A DNA stretch of 64,000 nucleotides. Origin: a bacterium. GTDB taxonomy: Bacteria > Myxococcota_A > UBA9160 > UBA4427. The stretch spans positions 62,001-126,000 of the forward strand of contig JANSYR010000014.1 of the NCBI GenBank assembly GCA_024742285.1. Direction: 5' to 3'. The translations under genes and the position numbers were made by a program. Below the pieces are notes generated by a model that was not told the origin of the DNA, made no database searches, and was given only the letters and a program-made list of their open reading frames with translations. Shown here one piece after another: positions 40,302 through 45,035 of the stretch (positions are counted from its first letter, which is position 1; every line of letters starts with the position of its first letter).

Positions 40302-41530
40302 GCCGTCCCTTCCTTCTCGGACCGGTCGAGCGCCGCGGCCATCACGTCCGCGATCTCCCATCCCCATCGGCCCAGGCTGAACCCTCCGAGCGGAGTGCGG
40401 TCGAAGCCCGGGAAGAAGAGCGTCGGGTCGACGCTGGACCGGCAGCGTCCGTCGGTCCTGGGATAGGCCGCGTAGCCGAGTGCCGGCGCGAGCAGCATCT
40501 CGTCGGCGATGAACTCCTCGAGGCCGGGTTCGTAGCCCGTCGCGAGGATCACGTCGTCGAACGCCTCGACGCGGTCGCCGAGCGCGACGCCGTCGGATCG
40601 GAAGCCGTTGATGGGGCGCTCGTTCCCGTCGATCACGCGCACGTCGCCCCGCTTGATCGCGGAGATCGTGCCCTGGTCGAAGGTCGGAATCCGGTTGTTC
40701 AGGTAGGTGTCCATGAAGGGGCCGACCTCGGGACGCTGGATCCCGTACTTCGAGAGGTCCACCGCGAGTCGGCCCACGATTCCATCGCGCATTCGGGCCA
40801 TCTTCTCGAACTGAGGGTCACCGACGGAGATCCGGTGGGCCTCGTCGTTCGCATTGTCGCTCATGACGCCCAGGAAACGGAGCACACGGAAGAGGCGGCC
40901 CATGCGCTTCAGCGGAATGAAGTGGCGCGGCGCGCGGACCCACATGGCGACGTCTCGCGCTCCGCCCTCGCTCAGGTCGAGGGCGATCTCGGCTGCCGAG
41001 TTGCCGCTCCCCACGACCAGAACGCGATGGCCAGCGAAGGGCTTCGAGTTGGCGTACGCGTGGCTGTGGAGGACGCAACCTTCGAAGGCGTCGATCCCCG
41101 GAATCTCCGGGACGTGCGGGATCCGGTTCATGGCCGTCGCGACGGCGACGAAACGCGCTCGAATCGATCCTCGATTCGTCTGCAGCTCCCAGGTCGCCTC
41201 TTCGTCGGGGCGGTCGACACGCGTCACGTTCGTGTCGAAGTGGATGTGCGGGACGAGACCGTGCTGCCTGGCGTAGCGCCCCAGATAGTCGACGACGTCG
41301 TTCCTCGACAGGAACATCGGGTAGTCGGCGCGCAGGCCACCGTCGTGGGGCATGTCGTGGAACGCGGAGTGGAGATGGAGACGCTCGTAGGTCGTCGACC
41401 AGAAGAAGCCGGCGCGGTCGCCCCTCTCGAACAGGACGAAGTTCTCGATCCCCTGGGCGCGCAACCCCGCGCCGGTGCCGAGACCGGCGAAGCCGGCTCC
41501 GATGATCGCAACGTCGACGATTTCGCTCAT
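40298..41530 (-). CDS. Flavin-containing monooxygenase (class B type)
   Basis: The 410-residue protein has the FAD motif GAGFAG (11-16), the FMO fingerprint FEGCVLHSHAY (149-159, F-x-G-x3-H-x3-Y), the NADPH motif GSGNSA (174-179) and the ATGYEP segment before the C-terminus. It uses NADPH and O2 to oxygenate a soft nucleophile or ketone; which is unknown. It starts at ATG 41530, and a 27-residue membrane ORF is coupled to its stop. Confidence 0.9.
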   Translation of the reverse strand: MSEIVDVAIIGAGFAGLGTGAGLRAQGIENFVLFERGDRAGFFWSTTYERLHLHSAFHDMPHDGGLRADYPMFLSRNDVVDYLGRYARQHGLVPHIHFDTNVTRVDRPDEEATWELQTNRGSIRARFVAVATAMNRIPHVPEIPGIDAFEGCVLHSHAYANSKPFAGHRVLVVGSGNSAAEIALDLSEGGARDVAMWVRAPRHFIPLKRMGRLFRVLRFLGVMSDNANDEAHRISVGDPQFEKMARMRDGIVGRLAVDLSKYGIQRPEVGPFMDTYLNNRIPTFDQGTISAIKRGDVRVIDGNERPINGFRSDGVALGDRVEAFDDVILATGYEPGLEEFIADEMLLAPALGYAAYPRTDGRCRSSVDPTLFFPGFDRTPLGGFSLGRWGWEIADVMAAALDRSEKEGTA

Positions 41531-41643
41531 GAATCGACCTCGGATGGGGCGTCAGGCCGGGGGGAGCTGGATCGGAGCACCCATGGTGCCGTGGCGGACT
41601 TCGCCTCGACTCACCTCCGTGTCCAGCTCTCCCCCGGGCAGGG

Positions 41644-42327
41644 TCAGATGCGGAGCGGTCCGGGCACCATGGCCGGTGCGGGTCCGTCCGCGAAGCAGGC
41701 GACGTTTCGAACGAGGCGCAGGATGGCTTTGTTGACGTCGTCGGCGGTGGGGCAGATCTCACCGAAGGCGACGTGATGGAGATCGCCGGCGGCCTCGAGC
41801 AGCAGGCCTTCGGGGTCGATCGCGACCACACGCGCTCCGGTTCCGTCCCGCTCGACGATCTCCCAGACGAGAGCCTCGATGACCGGCGCGTGGAACAGGT
41901 TCAGGTGGTCGACGAGCGCGGACTCTTCGGCGAGGCCCGGCGCGTCGTCGAGCAGCCACTCCGAGGCGAGGAAGGCATGCGGTCCGGCGTCCACGCAGTT
42001 CCACACGATCACGTCGGGGTCCAGGCACCACTTCATGTCGAAGCCGGGATGGAGCGCACGCCAGCGGTCGGCGTCGTTCTCGTCGTGGTGCGATCGCACA
42101 CGGCCTTCGATCACCGCGAAGCAACGCTTGGTTCCGAGCCAGAGGCGGGTCGCGCGGCGTGGGCGCGCAACGACGGGGACGTCGTTGCCGAACAGGACCG
42201 AGCCGTCCTGCGTGAAGGCGATCGCGACCGTCTCTTCGACGTTCGTGCCTTCGATGGACGCGATCGCGAAACGCTGCGTGCGGGCGAAGGCGCGCGCCGT
42301 GCTAGCGGGAGTAGAACTCGACGACAT
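41644..42327 (-). CDS. DUF2470-like C-terminal domain protein overlapping rpsD
   Basis: The 227-residue protein starts at ATG 42327, 26 bases inside the S4 gene, so it should be translationally coupled to it. The C-terminal third (LVDHLNLFHAPVIEALVWE...VVAIDPEGLLLEA) looks like DUF2470, a domain found in heme-iron utilisation HugZ-type and related proteins, where a histidine ligates heme. The N-terminal part (FTQDGSVLFGNDVPVVARP) could be a split beta-barrel of the PNPOx type, but this is weak. It appears to belong to the metal-responsive S4 transcript. Confidence 0.5.
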   Translation of the reverse strand: MSSSSTPASTARAFARTQRFAIASIEGTNVEETVAIAFTQDGSVLFGNDVPVVARPRRATRLWLGTKRCFAVIEGRVRSHHDENDADRWRALHPGFDMKWCLDPDVIVWNCVDAGPHAFLASEWLLDDAPGLAEESALVDHLNLFHAPVIEALVWEIVERDGTGARVVAIDPEGLLLEAAGDLHHVAFGEICPTADDVNKAILRLVRNVACFADGPAPAMVPGPLRI

Positions 42328-42892
42328 ATTGCTCCTCGCAGATCACCGGGATCTCGGTGCGTTCGGGTAGACGGGTCAGGGTCGCCTTCAGCTCGTCGAG
42401 ATCGCGCTCGAGATAGCCGGGCGGCGAATAGGCGGCGTGCTCCATGTCGAACATCTGCAGGGAGCGGCTCTTCTCTCGGATGCGCAGGGTGTCGCCGGGC
42501 AGGAGCGACTGGGACACCGTGCGTACGCGGCGGCCGTTCAGCTCGATGTGCCCGTGGGCGACGACCTGCCGCGCGGCGAAGATCGAGGCGACGAAGCCGC
42601 TGCGGTAGACGAGCGCGTCGAGGCGGCGCTCGAGGAGGCAGATCAGGTTCTCGCCGGTCCGGCCCTTCTGCCGGCTCGCGCGCGAGAAGGTCCGGCGCAT
42701 CTGCTTCTCGGACACGTTGTACTGGAAGCGCAGGCGCTGCTTCTCGAGCAGCTGCAGGCCGTAGTCCGAAAGGCGTCGCTCGGCACGGCCCTGCCGTGTG
42801 GTCGACTTCCGCTCGATCAGGCGCTGGGCCTTCGGCGTGAGGGCGACGCCGAGCTGGCGGCTGAGCTTGACCCTGGGACCGTTGAATCGCAT
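42302..42892 (-). CDS. rpsD: 30S ribosomal protein S4, zinc-ligand-free form
   Basis: The 196-residue protein is clearly S4: an N-terminal rRNA-binding region (MRFNGPRVKLSRQLGVALTP) and the S4 RNA-binding domain (LERRLDALVYRSGFV, ARQVVAHGHIELNG). The N-terminus lacks the cysteine cluster that binds zinc in 'C+' S4 proteins, so this is a zinc-independent 'C-' form. It stands outside a ribosomal protein operon and overlaps a non-ribosomal gene, as expected for a paralogue made under zinc shortage. The promoter carries a Fur/Zur-type palindrome 142 bases upstream, and a hairpin lies in the leader. Confidence 0.93.
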   Translation of the reverse strand: MRFNGPRVKLSRQLGVALTPKAQRLIERKSTTRQGRAERRLSDYGLQLLEKQRLRFQYNVSEKQMRRTFSRASRQKGRTGENLICLLERRLDALVYRSGFVASIFAARQVVAHGHIELNGRRVRTVSQSLLPGDTLRIREKSRSLQMFDMEHAAYSPPGYLERDLDELKATLTRLPERTEIPVICEEQYVVEFYSR

Positions 42893-42916
42893 CGGGGGGA
42901 GCGCCTTGTTTCCGTG

Positions 42917-42941
42917 CCGCCTCGGGCGGGGACCGAGGCGG
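42917..42941 (-). promoter_or_regulatory. Strong hairpin in the rpsD 5' leader
   Basis: CCGCCTCGG and CCGAGGCGG form a perfect 9-bp stem with a 7-base loop, ending 25 bases upstream of the rpsD ATG and inside the expected ~125-nt leader. It could be the site where S4 represses its own translation, or an attenuator; there is no T-run after it. Confidence 0.45.
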
Positions 42942-43024
42942 TGAGCTCGTTTCGGGGAGGGCCGGTTGGGCCGCGTCCGAGCTGGCGGGGACTCCGTGAA
43001 GGGTCGAGCTCGCTGGGAGATGGA

Positions 43025-43052
43025 AGAATACGAAATTGAAAATCATTTTCAA
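43025..43052 (-). promoter_or_regulatory. Sigma70-type promoter of rpsD-DUF2470
   Basis: On the minus strand TTGAAA (43047-43052) and TATTCT (43025-43030) are separated by 16 bases. This is the only consensus-like -35/-10 pair I can see in the window, in a short AT-rich patch. The -35 lies inside the 21-bp palindrome, so a bound Fur-family repressor would block polymerase. Transcript start is expected near 43018. Confidence 0.75.
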
Positions 43053-43054
43053 TT
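43034..43054. promoter_or_regulatory. 21-bp perfect Fur/Zur-type operator
   Basis: Arms AATTGAAAAT and ATTTTCAATT flank a single C, giving a perfect inverted repeat of the GAAAATnATTTTC type bound by Fur-family repressors. Because the regulated gene is a zinc-ligand-free S4, Zur is more likely than Fur. The box covers the -35 element of the promoter. Confidence 0.75.
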
Positions 43055-43064
43055 AGTGAAGGGC

Positions 43065-43101
43065 AAAAAAAGCGCCGCCTGCGCCGGAGGGGCGGGGCGG
43101 C
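43065..43101 (-). terminator. Intrinsic terminator of the 68-codon gene
   Basis: On the minus strand GCCGCC/GGCGGC plus inner CGCC/GGCG form a stem around a 5-base loop, followed directly by GC and seven T (43065-43071). It ends the 43127-43333 gene 25 bases after its stop and separates it from the Fur/Zur-controlled unit. It is the only hairpin in the window with a proper T-run. Confidence 0.78.
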
Positions 43102-43126
43102 TGAAGCCGAGCCTGGAAAAAAGGAG

Positions 43127-43333
43127 CTAGTTCAATCGCTTGCGCCAGGTATCCGCCGCGTCGCGGACCGCCTCACGGGCCGAACCGTGGCGTCGGACGC
43201 GCTTCACGCCGTCGCCGCGCTCGTCCTCGAGGAGATAGTCCTTCGGCGACCGGGGATCGTTGCGGACGTGAAGGGTTCGACCCTTCTCGCGGTCGCGAAG
43301 TCGGACGCTGAAAGCCAGGGGACGCAGGGCCAT
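43127..43333 (-). CDS. Small basic protein, 68 residues, unknown
   Basis: The 68-codon gene starts at ATG 43333, preceded by GGAGGAGATT, and encodes a charged protein rich in Arg and Asp with no membrane segment or signal peptide (ALRPLAFSVRLRDREKGRTL...SAREAVRDAADTWRKRLN). The good ribosome site and a proper terminator after its stop argue that it is expressed. I do not recognise a family; a nucleic-acid or ribosome-associated role is only a guess from its charge. The frame is open for 62 codons further upstream but without a ribosome site. Confidence 0.6.
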   Translation of the reverse strand: MALRPLAFSVRLRDREKGRTLHVRNDPRSPKDYLLEDERGDGVKRVRRHGSAREAVRDAADTWRKRLN

Positions 43334-43412
43334 CTCGGAATCTCCTCCGGCGCGTCGAGATCGGGTGCGCGCCGCTGAGGACCGTTTCGGCCGCGGTCGG
43401 TTTTTCTTGAGG

Positions 43413-43449
43413 CTTTCTCGCGACTTGGGGCGCGATTTGCGCGAGAAAG
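43413..43449. promoter_or_regulatory. 10-bp inverted repeat in divergent leader region
   Basis: CTTTCTCGCG (43413-43422) and CGCGAGAAAG (43440-43449) are perfectly complementary with a 17-base spacer. They lie between the small basic protein gene and the thioesterase gene, so an operator controlling either is possible, as is an RNA hairpin. Confidence 0.35.
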
Positions 43450-43517
43450 AGGGGGTGTCCCCGCGATTCACTCCTCGTCCCGGCGGTTCGGGGCTGGATC
43501 GGCCATCCTCCCGCGCC

Positions 43518-44165
43518 ATGCAGACCCCGAAGATCGGACAGGCCCCCGCGGACGACCTCGTCGACCTCGCTCAGCGTGTTCGGGACGTCGCGAACGAGCT
43601 GCTTCGCATCCACGAGGGCGACCATGCGCACGTGGCCGAGGCACGCGAGACCCTCGACGAGGCGGTGGCGAAGCTCGGCGCGATCGCGAGCCGACACGAG
43701 GCACCGCGTGCGGTCGAGGCCGTCGAGAAGGAGGGCACGCGGCCCTACTACTTTCCCGGCGCCCTCGCGCCGCGGGTCCACGTCGCGCATCCGTGGATGA
43801 CCGCCGAGGAGATGCCGGAGGGACGCCGCGGGCGCGTGCGCTTCGACCTGATTCACGAGGGGCCGCCCGGGTGCGCCCACGGCGGCCACGTCGCCTGGTT
43901 CTTCGACCAGGCCTTCGGTCATCACGTCGTCGCGCAGCAGATCGGCGGCCCGACCCATCGGCTCGAGGTCGTCTACCGACGGCTCACGCCGCTTCAGACC
44001 GAGCTCGACTACGAGATCCGCACGGACCGCGTCGACGGGCGCAAGATCTTCGCGGATGGCGTGCTCCGGCACGGAGACGACGTCGTCGCCGAAGCGAAGG
44101 CGCTCTTCGTCGCGCCGAAGGCGGGATTCGAGATGACCAAGGACGGGATGACCCGGAGCGACTAG
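43518..44165 (+). CDS. PaaI-type hotdog thioesterase
   Basis: The 215-residue protein has an N-terminal helical extension (residues about 10-65, heptad-like) and a hotdog domain with CAHGGHVAWFFDQAFGHHV, the central helix motif of PaaI/thioesterase family 4, followed by strands ending in KALFVAPK. It hydrolyses acyl-CoA thioesters, releasing free acids. Start ATG 43518 is taken as the first Met of the conserved part; the frame is open upstream to 43365. It ends six bases before the opposing SDR gene. Confidence 0.85.
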   Translation: MQTPKIGQAPADDLVDLAQRVRDVANELLRIHEGDHAHVAEARETLDEAVAKLGAIASRHEAPRAVEAVEKEGTRPYYFPGALAPRVHVAHPWMTAEEMPEGRRGRVRFDLIHEGPPGCAHGGHVAWFFDQAFGHHVVAQQIGGPTHRLEVVYRRLTPLQTELDYEIRTDRVDGRKIFADGVLRHGDDVVAEAKALFVAPKAGFEMTKDGMTRSD

Positions 44166-44171
44166 CGCGGG

Positions 44172-45035
44172 TCAGTCGTCCCGCGGCGGGGCCGAAGGGT
44201 CGAGGGCCGGATTGCTTCCCTCGAGGATCGCGTCGAAGCGCGAACGGAGCCGGGCATCGGCATTGTCGTGGGTGAAGATCCAGAAGCGCTGCTCGCGGAT
44301 CGAGTTCAGGACGCGCTCCGCGACGTCTTCCGCGGGAACGGCGATCGCCTTCAGCGCATCCGTGGCGTCGCCCGTCCAGCCGCCCGCCATCGCCCGCGGC
44401 GGCGGCGCATCGTCGCGGCGCAGCGCCTCGGGACGATTGCGGTCCGACTGCGTGATGCCCGTCGCGACGTAGCCGGGGCACAGGACCGAGACGCCCACCG
44501 GCGTGTCCACGAGCTCCTGGTACAGGGTCTCGGCGAGAGCGACGGTGCCGTGCTTGGACATCTGGTAGGCGGCGTTGCCCGGGACGACGGTCAGGCCGGA
44601 CATCGACCCGGTGATCACGACGTGGGCCGGCTCGCCGGCTTCGAGCATCCGCGGCACGAAGCTCCTCACGCAGTGGATCGGCCCCCAGAGATTCACGCCG
44701 AAGACCCAGGCGAAGTCCTCGAGCGGGCGCTCCCAGGCGGGGCCGACCTCCTGCATGACGCCCGCGTTCGCGAAGACGAGCTGGACGCCGCCGAAGCGCG
44801 CGACGGCGGCCTCGGCCAGCGCCTCGACCGCGTCGGCGTTCGACACGTCGGTCACGACGCCGATCGCTTCCGCGCCGTCGGTTTCGAGCTCGGCGACGGC
44901 CTTCGCGAGGGCCGCTTCCTCGACGTCCGAGAGGACGAGGCGCACGCCCTCGCGAGCGAGGCGGTCGCAGAGGGCGCGCCCGATTCCACTGGCGGCACCG
45001 GTCACGACGGCGACGCGATTTTCGAGATCCTTCAT
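44172..45035 (-). CDS. Short-chain dehydrogenase/reductase
   Basis: The 287-residue SDR is canonical: TGAASGIG (12-19), FANAGVM for NNAG, Ser144 in ITGSMSG and Tyr157/Lys161 in AAYQMSKHG. It oxidises or reduces a hydroxy/keto compound with NAD(P). GGAG stands eight bases before the ATG. A membrane protein gene lies upstream on the same strand, 32 bases before it, so they may be one unit. The substrate is unknown. Confidence 0.9.
   Translation of the reverse strand: MKDLENRVAVVTGAASGIGRALCDRLAREGVRLVLSDVEEAALAKAVAELETDGAEAIGVVTDVSNADAVEALAEAAVARFGGVQLVFANAGVMQEVGPAWERPLEDFAWVFGVNLWGPIHCVRSFVPRMLEAGEPAHVVITGSMSGLTVVPGNAAYQMSKHGTVALAETLYQELVDTPVGVSVLCPGYVATGITQSDRNRPEALRRDDAPPPRAMAGGWTGDATDALKAIAVPAEDVAERVLNSIREQRFWIFTHDNADARLRSRFDAILEGSNPALDPSAPPRDD

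Follow-up and report, generated by a model that had tools for sequence, protein, structure and literature searches.

Why would a bacterium carry a second gene for ribosomal protein uS4 outside the main ribosomal operon, place it behind an operator of Fur-family type, and overlap it with a gene for a heme-type protein? We addressed this question at a locus of a myxococcotal genome, in a window of 64,000 nucleotides (the whole stretch of DNA that was analyzed). We put the probability at roughly two in three that the locus is an iron-starvation operon, in which a cluster-free S4 stands in for the Fe-S form, or serves as its backup, and is made together with a heme-iron protein.

The control region contains the following features, in window coordinates:

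43034..43054, no strand: operator, the 21-bp palindrome AATTGAAAATcATTTTCAATT, a predicted Fur box
43025..43052, minus strand: sigma-70-like promoter TTGAAA-16-TATTCT, with its -35 element under the operator
42893..43018, minus strand: S4 leader of about 125 nt, with the transcription start deduced from the position of the -10 element
43071..43085, minus strand: terminator-like hairpin, by consensus match only, just upstream of the operon

The first-pass annotation of this DNA had described a 21-bp palindrome of Fur-family type over the -35 box of a promoter. Both elements are present, the palindrome at 43034-43054 and the promoter as TTGAAA-N16-TATTCT, and the observation as a whole was confirmed. 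This promoter was the one sigma-70-like site within positions 41500-44500, with 0.1 expected in 3 kb. The 7-1-7 core of AATTGAAAATcATTTTCAATT is TGAAAATnATTTTCA. When the 17-bp palindrome core was searched at up to three mismatches, it gave a single match in the window, compared to 0 expected from 100 shuffles. A search for further copies, which the annotation had proposed, returned three in total in the 6.5-Mb genome at up to two mismatches, and none for the reversed control pattern; the two other copies lie before a TonB-dependent receptor gene (L008) and before the gene for a small CxC protein (L007). In the aligned leaders of relatives (alignment A3), the conserved block is the operator and little else is kept. 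The terminator-like hairpin at 43071..43085 sets the operon apart from the preceding minus-strand ORF at 43127-43330. The S4 leader also contains a G+C-rich hairpin (CCGCCTCGG...CCGAGGCGG; window 42917-42941, minus strand) that is not conserved in relatives.

The operon itself consists of two genes:

42302..42892, minus strand: C- (cysteine-free) paralogue of ribosomal protein uS4, 196 aa (PF00163, PF01479, TIGR01017)
41644..42327, minus strand: predicted HugZ/HOZ-like protein (FMN split-barrel plus DUF2470), 227 aa, with its first 26 nt inside the 3' end of the S4 gene

The S4 of the window scored 70 bits against PF00163 and 50.5 bits against PF01479, and was full-length by TIGR01017 (196.6 bits, cut-off 177.2). 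It does lack the N-terminal cysteines, as had been annotated: none occurs among the first 45 residues, and the CxxC...CxxxxC site is missing. A second S4 with a CxxC-type N-terminus, which had been suggested as something to look for, was found in the alpha operon, flanked by S11 and rpoA (G000:C21; MARYTGSVCRLCRREG...RCFTEKCAIERR). This protein has four cysteines (C+), and the window gene is therefore not the only S4 gene in the genome. The C+ S4 is related to Thermus thermophilus uS4 over its full length, with all four cysteines aligned. The cysteine site of T. thermophilus uS4 holds an Fe4S4 cluster by long-wavelength diffraction (PMC6555806), and uS4 is given as the one iron-sulfur ribosomal protein (PMC10450194). 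By analogy, the C+ S4 of the source organism would carry a [4Fe-4S] cluster. Pairs of C+ and C- S4 genes, with C+ in the alpha operon and C- elsewhere, were described by Chen, Roberts and Luthey-Schulten in 2009 (PMC3087516) for deltaproteobacteria (myxobacteria) and Actinobacteria, among others. The C- genes had no Zur sites; the S4 site was treated as zinc-binding and the regulation of C- S4 was left open. The present pair resembles those in the location of both genes and in that no Zur control was found.

The second gene begins 26 bases inside S4, as previously noted, and the overlap is conserved in relatives. It measured 26 nt in four of the six genomes with a boxed S4, and would be 38 nt in G009 with a GTG further upstream as the start codon. 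For the DUF2470-like domain assigned to its product, the window protein scored 16.2 bits, under the Pfam cut-off of 22; two orthologues exceeded that cut-off (L029, 32.2; L030, 26.6), and the predicted fold is HugZ/HOZ-like. A profile search with the protein matched Dri1 and the HugZ heme oxygenase 3gas. An AlphaFold model of the 227-aa protein (pLDDT 80.5) gave Foldseek matches to 2arz (E 1e-13, TM 0.73), 6m0a and 5bnc, and the split-barrel plus DUF2470 proteins matched by the model were 2arz, the heme-bound At3g03890 (6m0a) and M. smegmatis MSMEG_6519. The second gene product is thus predicted to have the HugZ/HOZ heme-protein fold, and may bind or degrade heme. The coupling of S4 to a DUF2470/heme-type gene was supported. 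Elsewhere, in the vicinity of a TonB receptor-like gene, a short DUF2470 homologue stands alone behind a perfect Fur box (L338 2543-3104, G004:C93).

C- S4 genes of the window type were found in three families of the order, in seven genomes altogether. The operator matched at 12-14 of 14 positions upstream of the gene in six of the seven, a match equaled in at most 1 of 1000 shuffles, so the palindrome, whose presence upstream of orthologues the annotation had left to be checked, is conserved. The HugZ-like gene follows the boxed C- S4 in 6/6 genomes of the lineage. The seventh genome (G073) had no box, and no C+ S4 was found there either; G003 had the box and no C+ S4 was found in its 540-contig assembly, but gene absence in Myxococcota is weak evidence because many of the genomes used are fragmented, incomplete assemblies. 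A separate type of myxococcotal C- S4 carried a Fur-type box in three of seven two-S4 genomes and in G223, with no HugZ neighbor. The other four two-S4 genomes had no recognizable box, and none was found in the 12 rows of this type from C- only genomes. The G223 gene (L087) has a perfect TGATAATCATTATCA box, and no C+ S4 was found in that assembly.

The letters of the palindrome do not by themselves separate Fur from Zur, and they also resemble actinobacterial Zur boxes. The first-pass annotation had assigned the operator to Zur and zinc. In that case the C- S4 would spare zinc, following the same C+/C- logic as the Zur-controlled S14, L31 and L33 paralogues, and the zinc-binding site assumed in PMC3087516 would agree. 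Against this, the genome encodes one FUR-family protein (L009 6080-6514), whose highest scores were to ferric Fur models (103 bits, versus 40.8 bits for the Zur model with its cut-off of 167; both below their cut-offs) and whose nearest solved structures are Fur proteins. No Zur regulator was found in the genome, this single protein being Fur-like, and no ZnuA was found either. ZnuA was present in 3 of 10 relatives searched, and the palindrome was missing from all three loci. Where the palindrome occurs in relatives at up to one mismatch, it adjoins FeoA/FeoB, ferritin-like, fecI-type sigma and TonB receptor genes. We therefore read the palindrome as a Fur box, because the only FUR-family protein is Fur-like, ZnuA is absent from the genome searched, and iron genes lie beside it in relatives. 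Zur was rejected as the regulator on genome content and on the palindrome's neighbors, and the controlling metal is probably iron, not zinc. Iron control also makes better sense because the four-cysteine S4 site is [4Fe-4S] in Thermus. Zinc sparing under a Zur box is further disfavored by the lack of Zur sites at S4 paralogues even where such sites were present at others (PMC3087516), and by the DtxR-type iron box at the actinobacterial C- S4 genes described below; we regard it as unlikely. What stood of the earlier interpretation was the Fur-family operator over the promoter, the metal-site-free S4 with a four-cysteine partner, and the heme-type coupling; Zur and zinc did not.

Other genes of the order were seen at Fur boxes. 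The perfect palindrome copy at L007 (5737-5958, G000:C3) lies before the gene for a protein of 73 aa, which contains a CxC/HCTCG motif, has only a weak Pfam match and is probably a Fur-regulated small metal-site protein; G004 has an orthologous region (L335). At L008 (3757-5892 and 6194-6610), a TonB receptor gene and a divergent gene for a protein of about 138 aa, of no known family, have a common Fur box, an arrangement shared by several relatives (L339, L340). A porin-like protein recurs at Fur boxes, sometimes beside FeoB (L346, L347, L348, L344, L353); the one tested had no Pfam match.

Scanning genomes with the C- S4 alignment pointed to Streptomyces and Phytohabitans, in which a DtxR-type iron box lies about 40-60 bp upstream of the C- S4 gene. 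Boxes were scored out of 19 against TTAGGTTAGGCTAACCTAA, the IdeR/DmdR1 consensus; at most about 0.1% of shuffles reached 14 of 19 or better. With two-S4 status assigned by match counts (the second match was S4-like wherever it was listed for these genomes), the C- S4 had a box of at least 15 of 19 in 23/24 two-S4 Streptomycetales and of at least 14 of 19 in 45/48 two-S4 Micromonosporaceae, counts that overstate independence because genomes within a clade are related. No DtxR-type box was found at five Streptomyces C+ S4 genes, which have four cysteines and lie in the alpha operon. Among the best-matching C- S4 genes of Micromonosporaceae, 29 of 30 had a box (at least 14) and all 30 a DUF2470 neighbor, the boxless gene coming from a genome with a single S4 match. 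Further Micromonosporaceae had the box in 16/19 two-S4 genomes versus 0/16 C- only genomes; with all sets taken together, it was absent from the 17 in which C- S4 alone was found. Nonomuraea C- S4 had both the box and a HugZ-like neighbor.

Among single-S4 Streptomyces, the box was kept in 19 of 23 genomes close to the two-S4 group and in 0 of 20 at a greater distance from it. In the tree, boxless single-S4 genes are nested among boxed ones, as if the box had been lost after the C+ gene. The C- S4 is thus paired with an iron-repressor box mainly in genomes that contain a four-cysteine S4 as well, which fits a backup for the iron-sulfur S4 and is hard to explain by zinc. The 19 boxed genes among close single-S4 Streptomyces count against this reading, since a box that fully shut off the only S4 would be dangerous. 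Streptomyces whose single S4 gene has an iron box include L240, L242, L244, L245, L248 and L249, among others; in L261 the box is broken.

In most Actinobacteria the box is common to the C- S4 gene and a divergent HugZ-like gene, and therefore could serve the latter. S4 would then just share the promoter region or, in the operon, provide translational coupling. This would account for the HugZ-like gene adjoining the boxed C- S4 in both phyla (Myxococcota and Actinobacteria), for the box kept by close single-S4 Streptomyces in which no C+ partner was found, and for the solitary DUF2470 homologue under a perfect box in G004. However, boxes of 16-18 of 19 also occur at six Streptomycetales C- S4 genes of another type, whose upstream neighbors are different and which have no HugZ in the stretch fetched. 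L160 likewise has a box and no HugZ neighbor in the stretch read, and L381, from a two-S4 member of the Micromonosporaceae, has a box of 14 of 19 and no HugZ match in its stretch. In Myxococcota, S4 comes first in the operon, downstream of the box, and the other C- type is boxed with no HugZ neighbor. We consider it improbable that the box serves the heme gene alone.

S4 governs accuracy, and Fur-type regulators respond also to oxidative loss of iron. The C- S4 could thus serve in a ribosome variant made under iron stress for another purpose than iron sparing, such as altered decoding accuracy or resistance to oxidants that attack Fe-S clusters; this reading would draw on both points and on the rise of clostridial C- S4 in sporulation (PMC3087516). 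We consider it unlikely, because the box hardly occurs outside genomes with a four-cysteine S4, a pattern that a backup would produce, and is missing in more distant genomes where C- S4 was the only one found.

The iron-starvation operon would therefore be expected to work as follows. Judging from the operator and its neighbors in relatives, iron-loaded Fur would bind the palindrome that covers the -35 box and repress the operon. When iron is scarce, Fur would leave and a C- S4 needing no metal would be produced, to be built into new 30S subunits instead of the housekeeping four-cysteine S4. The HugZ-like protein would be made alongside, translationally coupled via the 26-nt overlap, and probably binds or breaks down heme, which would yield iron. 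Iron-dependent expression, replacement of S4 in the ribosome, and heme chemistry are what we infer from this arrangement.

Other groups were searched for the same arrangement. Neither a recognizable box nor a HugZ neighbor was found in two-S4 Acidobacteria and a Chloroflexota genome, and the extra S4 of Acetoanaerobium (Clostridia) had no significant box. These cases count against the iron-starvation reading, as do the four unboxed two-S4 Myxococcota of the other type and the boxed G003. Matches to S4 in C. difficile and other 'plasmid' records were rejected as paralogues, the one opened being a piece of the alpha operon. In the 'plasmids' collection (L334, L332), a C. difficile 'plasmid' contains an alpha operon, and the Nonomuraea record named 'plasmid I' has a length of 11.85 Mb; these records are probably mislabelled chromosome sequence. 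A DtxR prediction in Corynebacterium diphtheriae that names rpsD (PMC524172) is a different case, S4 there lying in a long secY/alpha operon. The C. difficile Fur paper does not have rpsD among its contents, the main text of the DmdR1 regulon study (PMC12161575) does not mention it, and no paper was returned for rpsD in combination with 'Fur box' and iron. No description of iron control of S4 was found in the literature searched and, to that extent, the iron boxes and HugZ partner of C- S4 are new relative to PMC3087516.

The locus resembles the Zur-controlled zinc-free paralogues (S14, S18, L28, L31, L33, L36) in having a metal-site-free copy outside the main operon, a metal repressor, and a partner with the metal site. 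It differs in its repressor, Fur or DtxR-type and not Zur, in a site that is [4Fe-4S] in Thermus uS4 and not zinc, and in its HugZ-like gene partner. The predicted split-barrel plus DUF2470 fold is that of the HugZ/HOZ/Dri1 heme proteins, whereas here the gene is coupled to that of a ribosomal protein and the window protein falls under the Pfam cut-off. Iron-sparing responses governed by Fur/RyhB, IdeR and Irr likewise save iron in starvation, but they shut off Fe-S proteins; a cluster-free ribosomal substitute is proposed here.

These results suggest that, under iron scarcity, some bacteria exchange an iron-containing part of the ribosome for one free of iron. We lean slightly toward a broader statement: the [4Fe-4S] cluster of uS4 would be a regulated iron cost of the ribosome, and in at least two phyla unrelated repressors (Fur and DtxR-type) would place a cluster-free S4 under iron-starvation control, usually with a HugZ-like protein, as the iron counterpart of the Zur/zinc switch. 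If true, this would explain the absence of Zur control at S4 paralogues in genomes whose other metal-site paralogues had it. The source lineage is known here from metagenome assemblies only; iron-dependent ribosome remodelling could be tested in culturable Streptomyces and Micromonosporaceae (e.g. Phytohabitans). It would also assign a role in cell physiology to the iron-sulfur cluster observed in ribosome structures.
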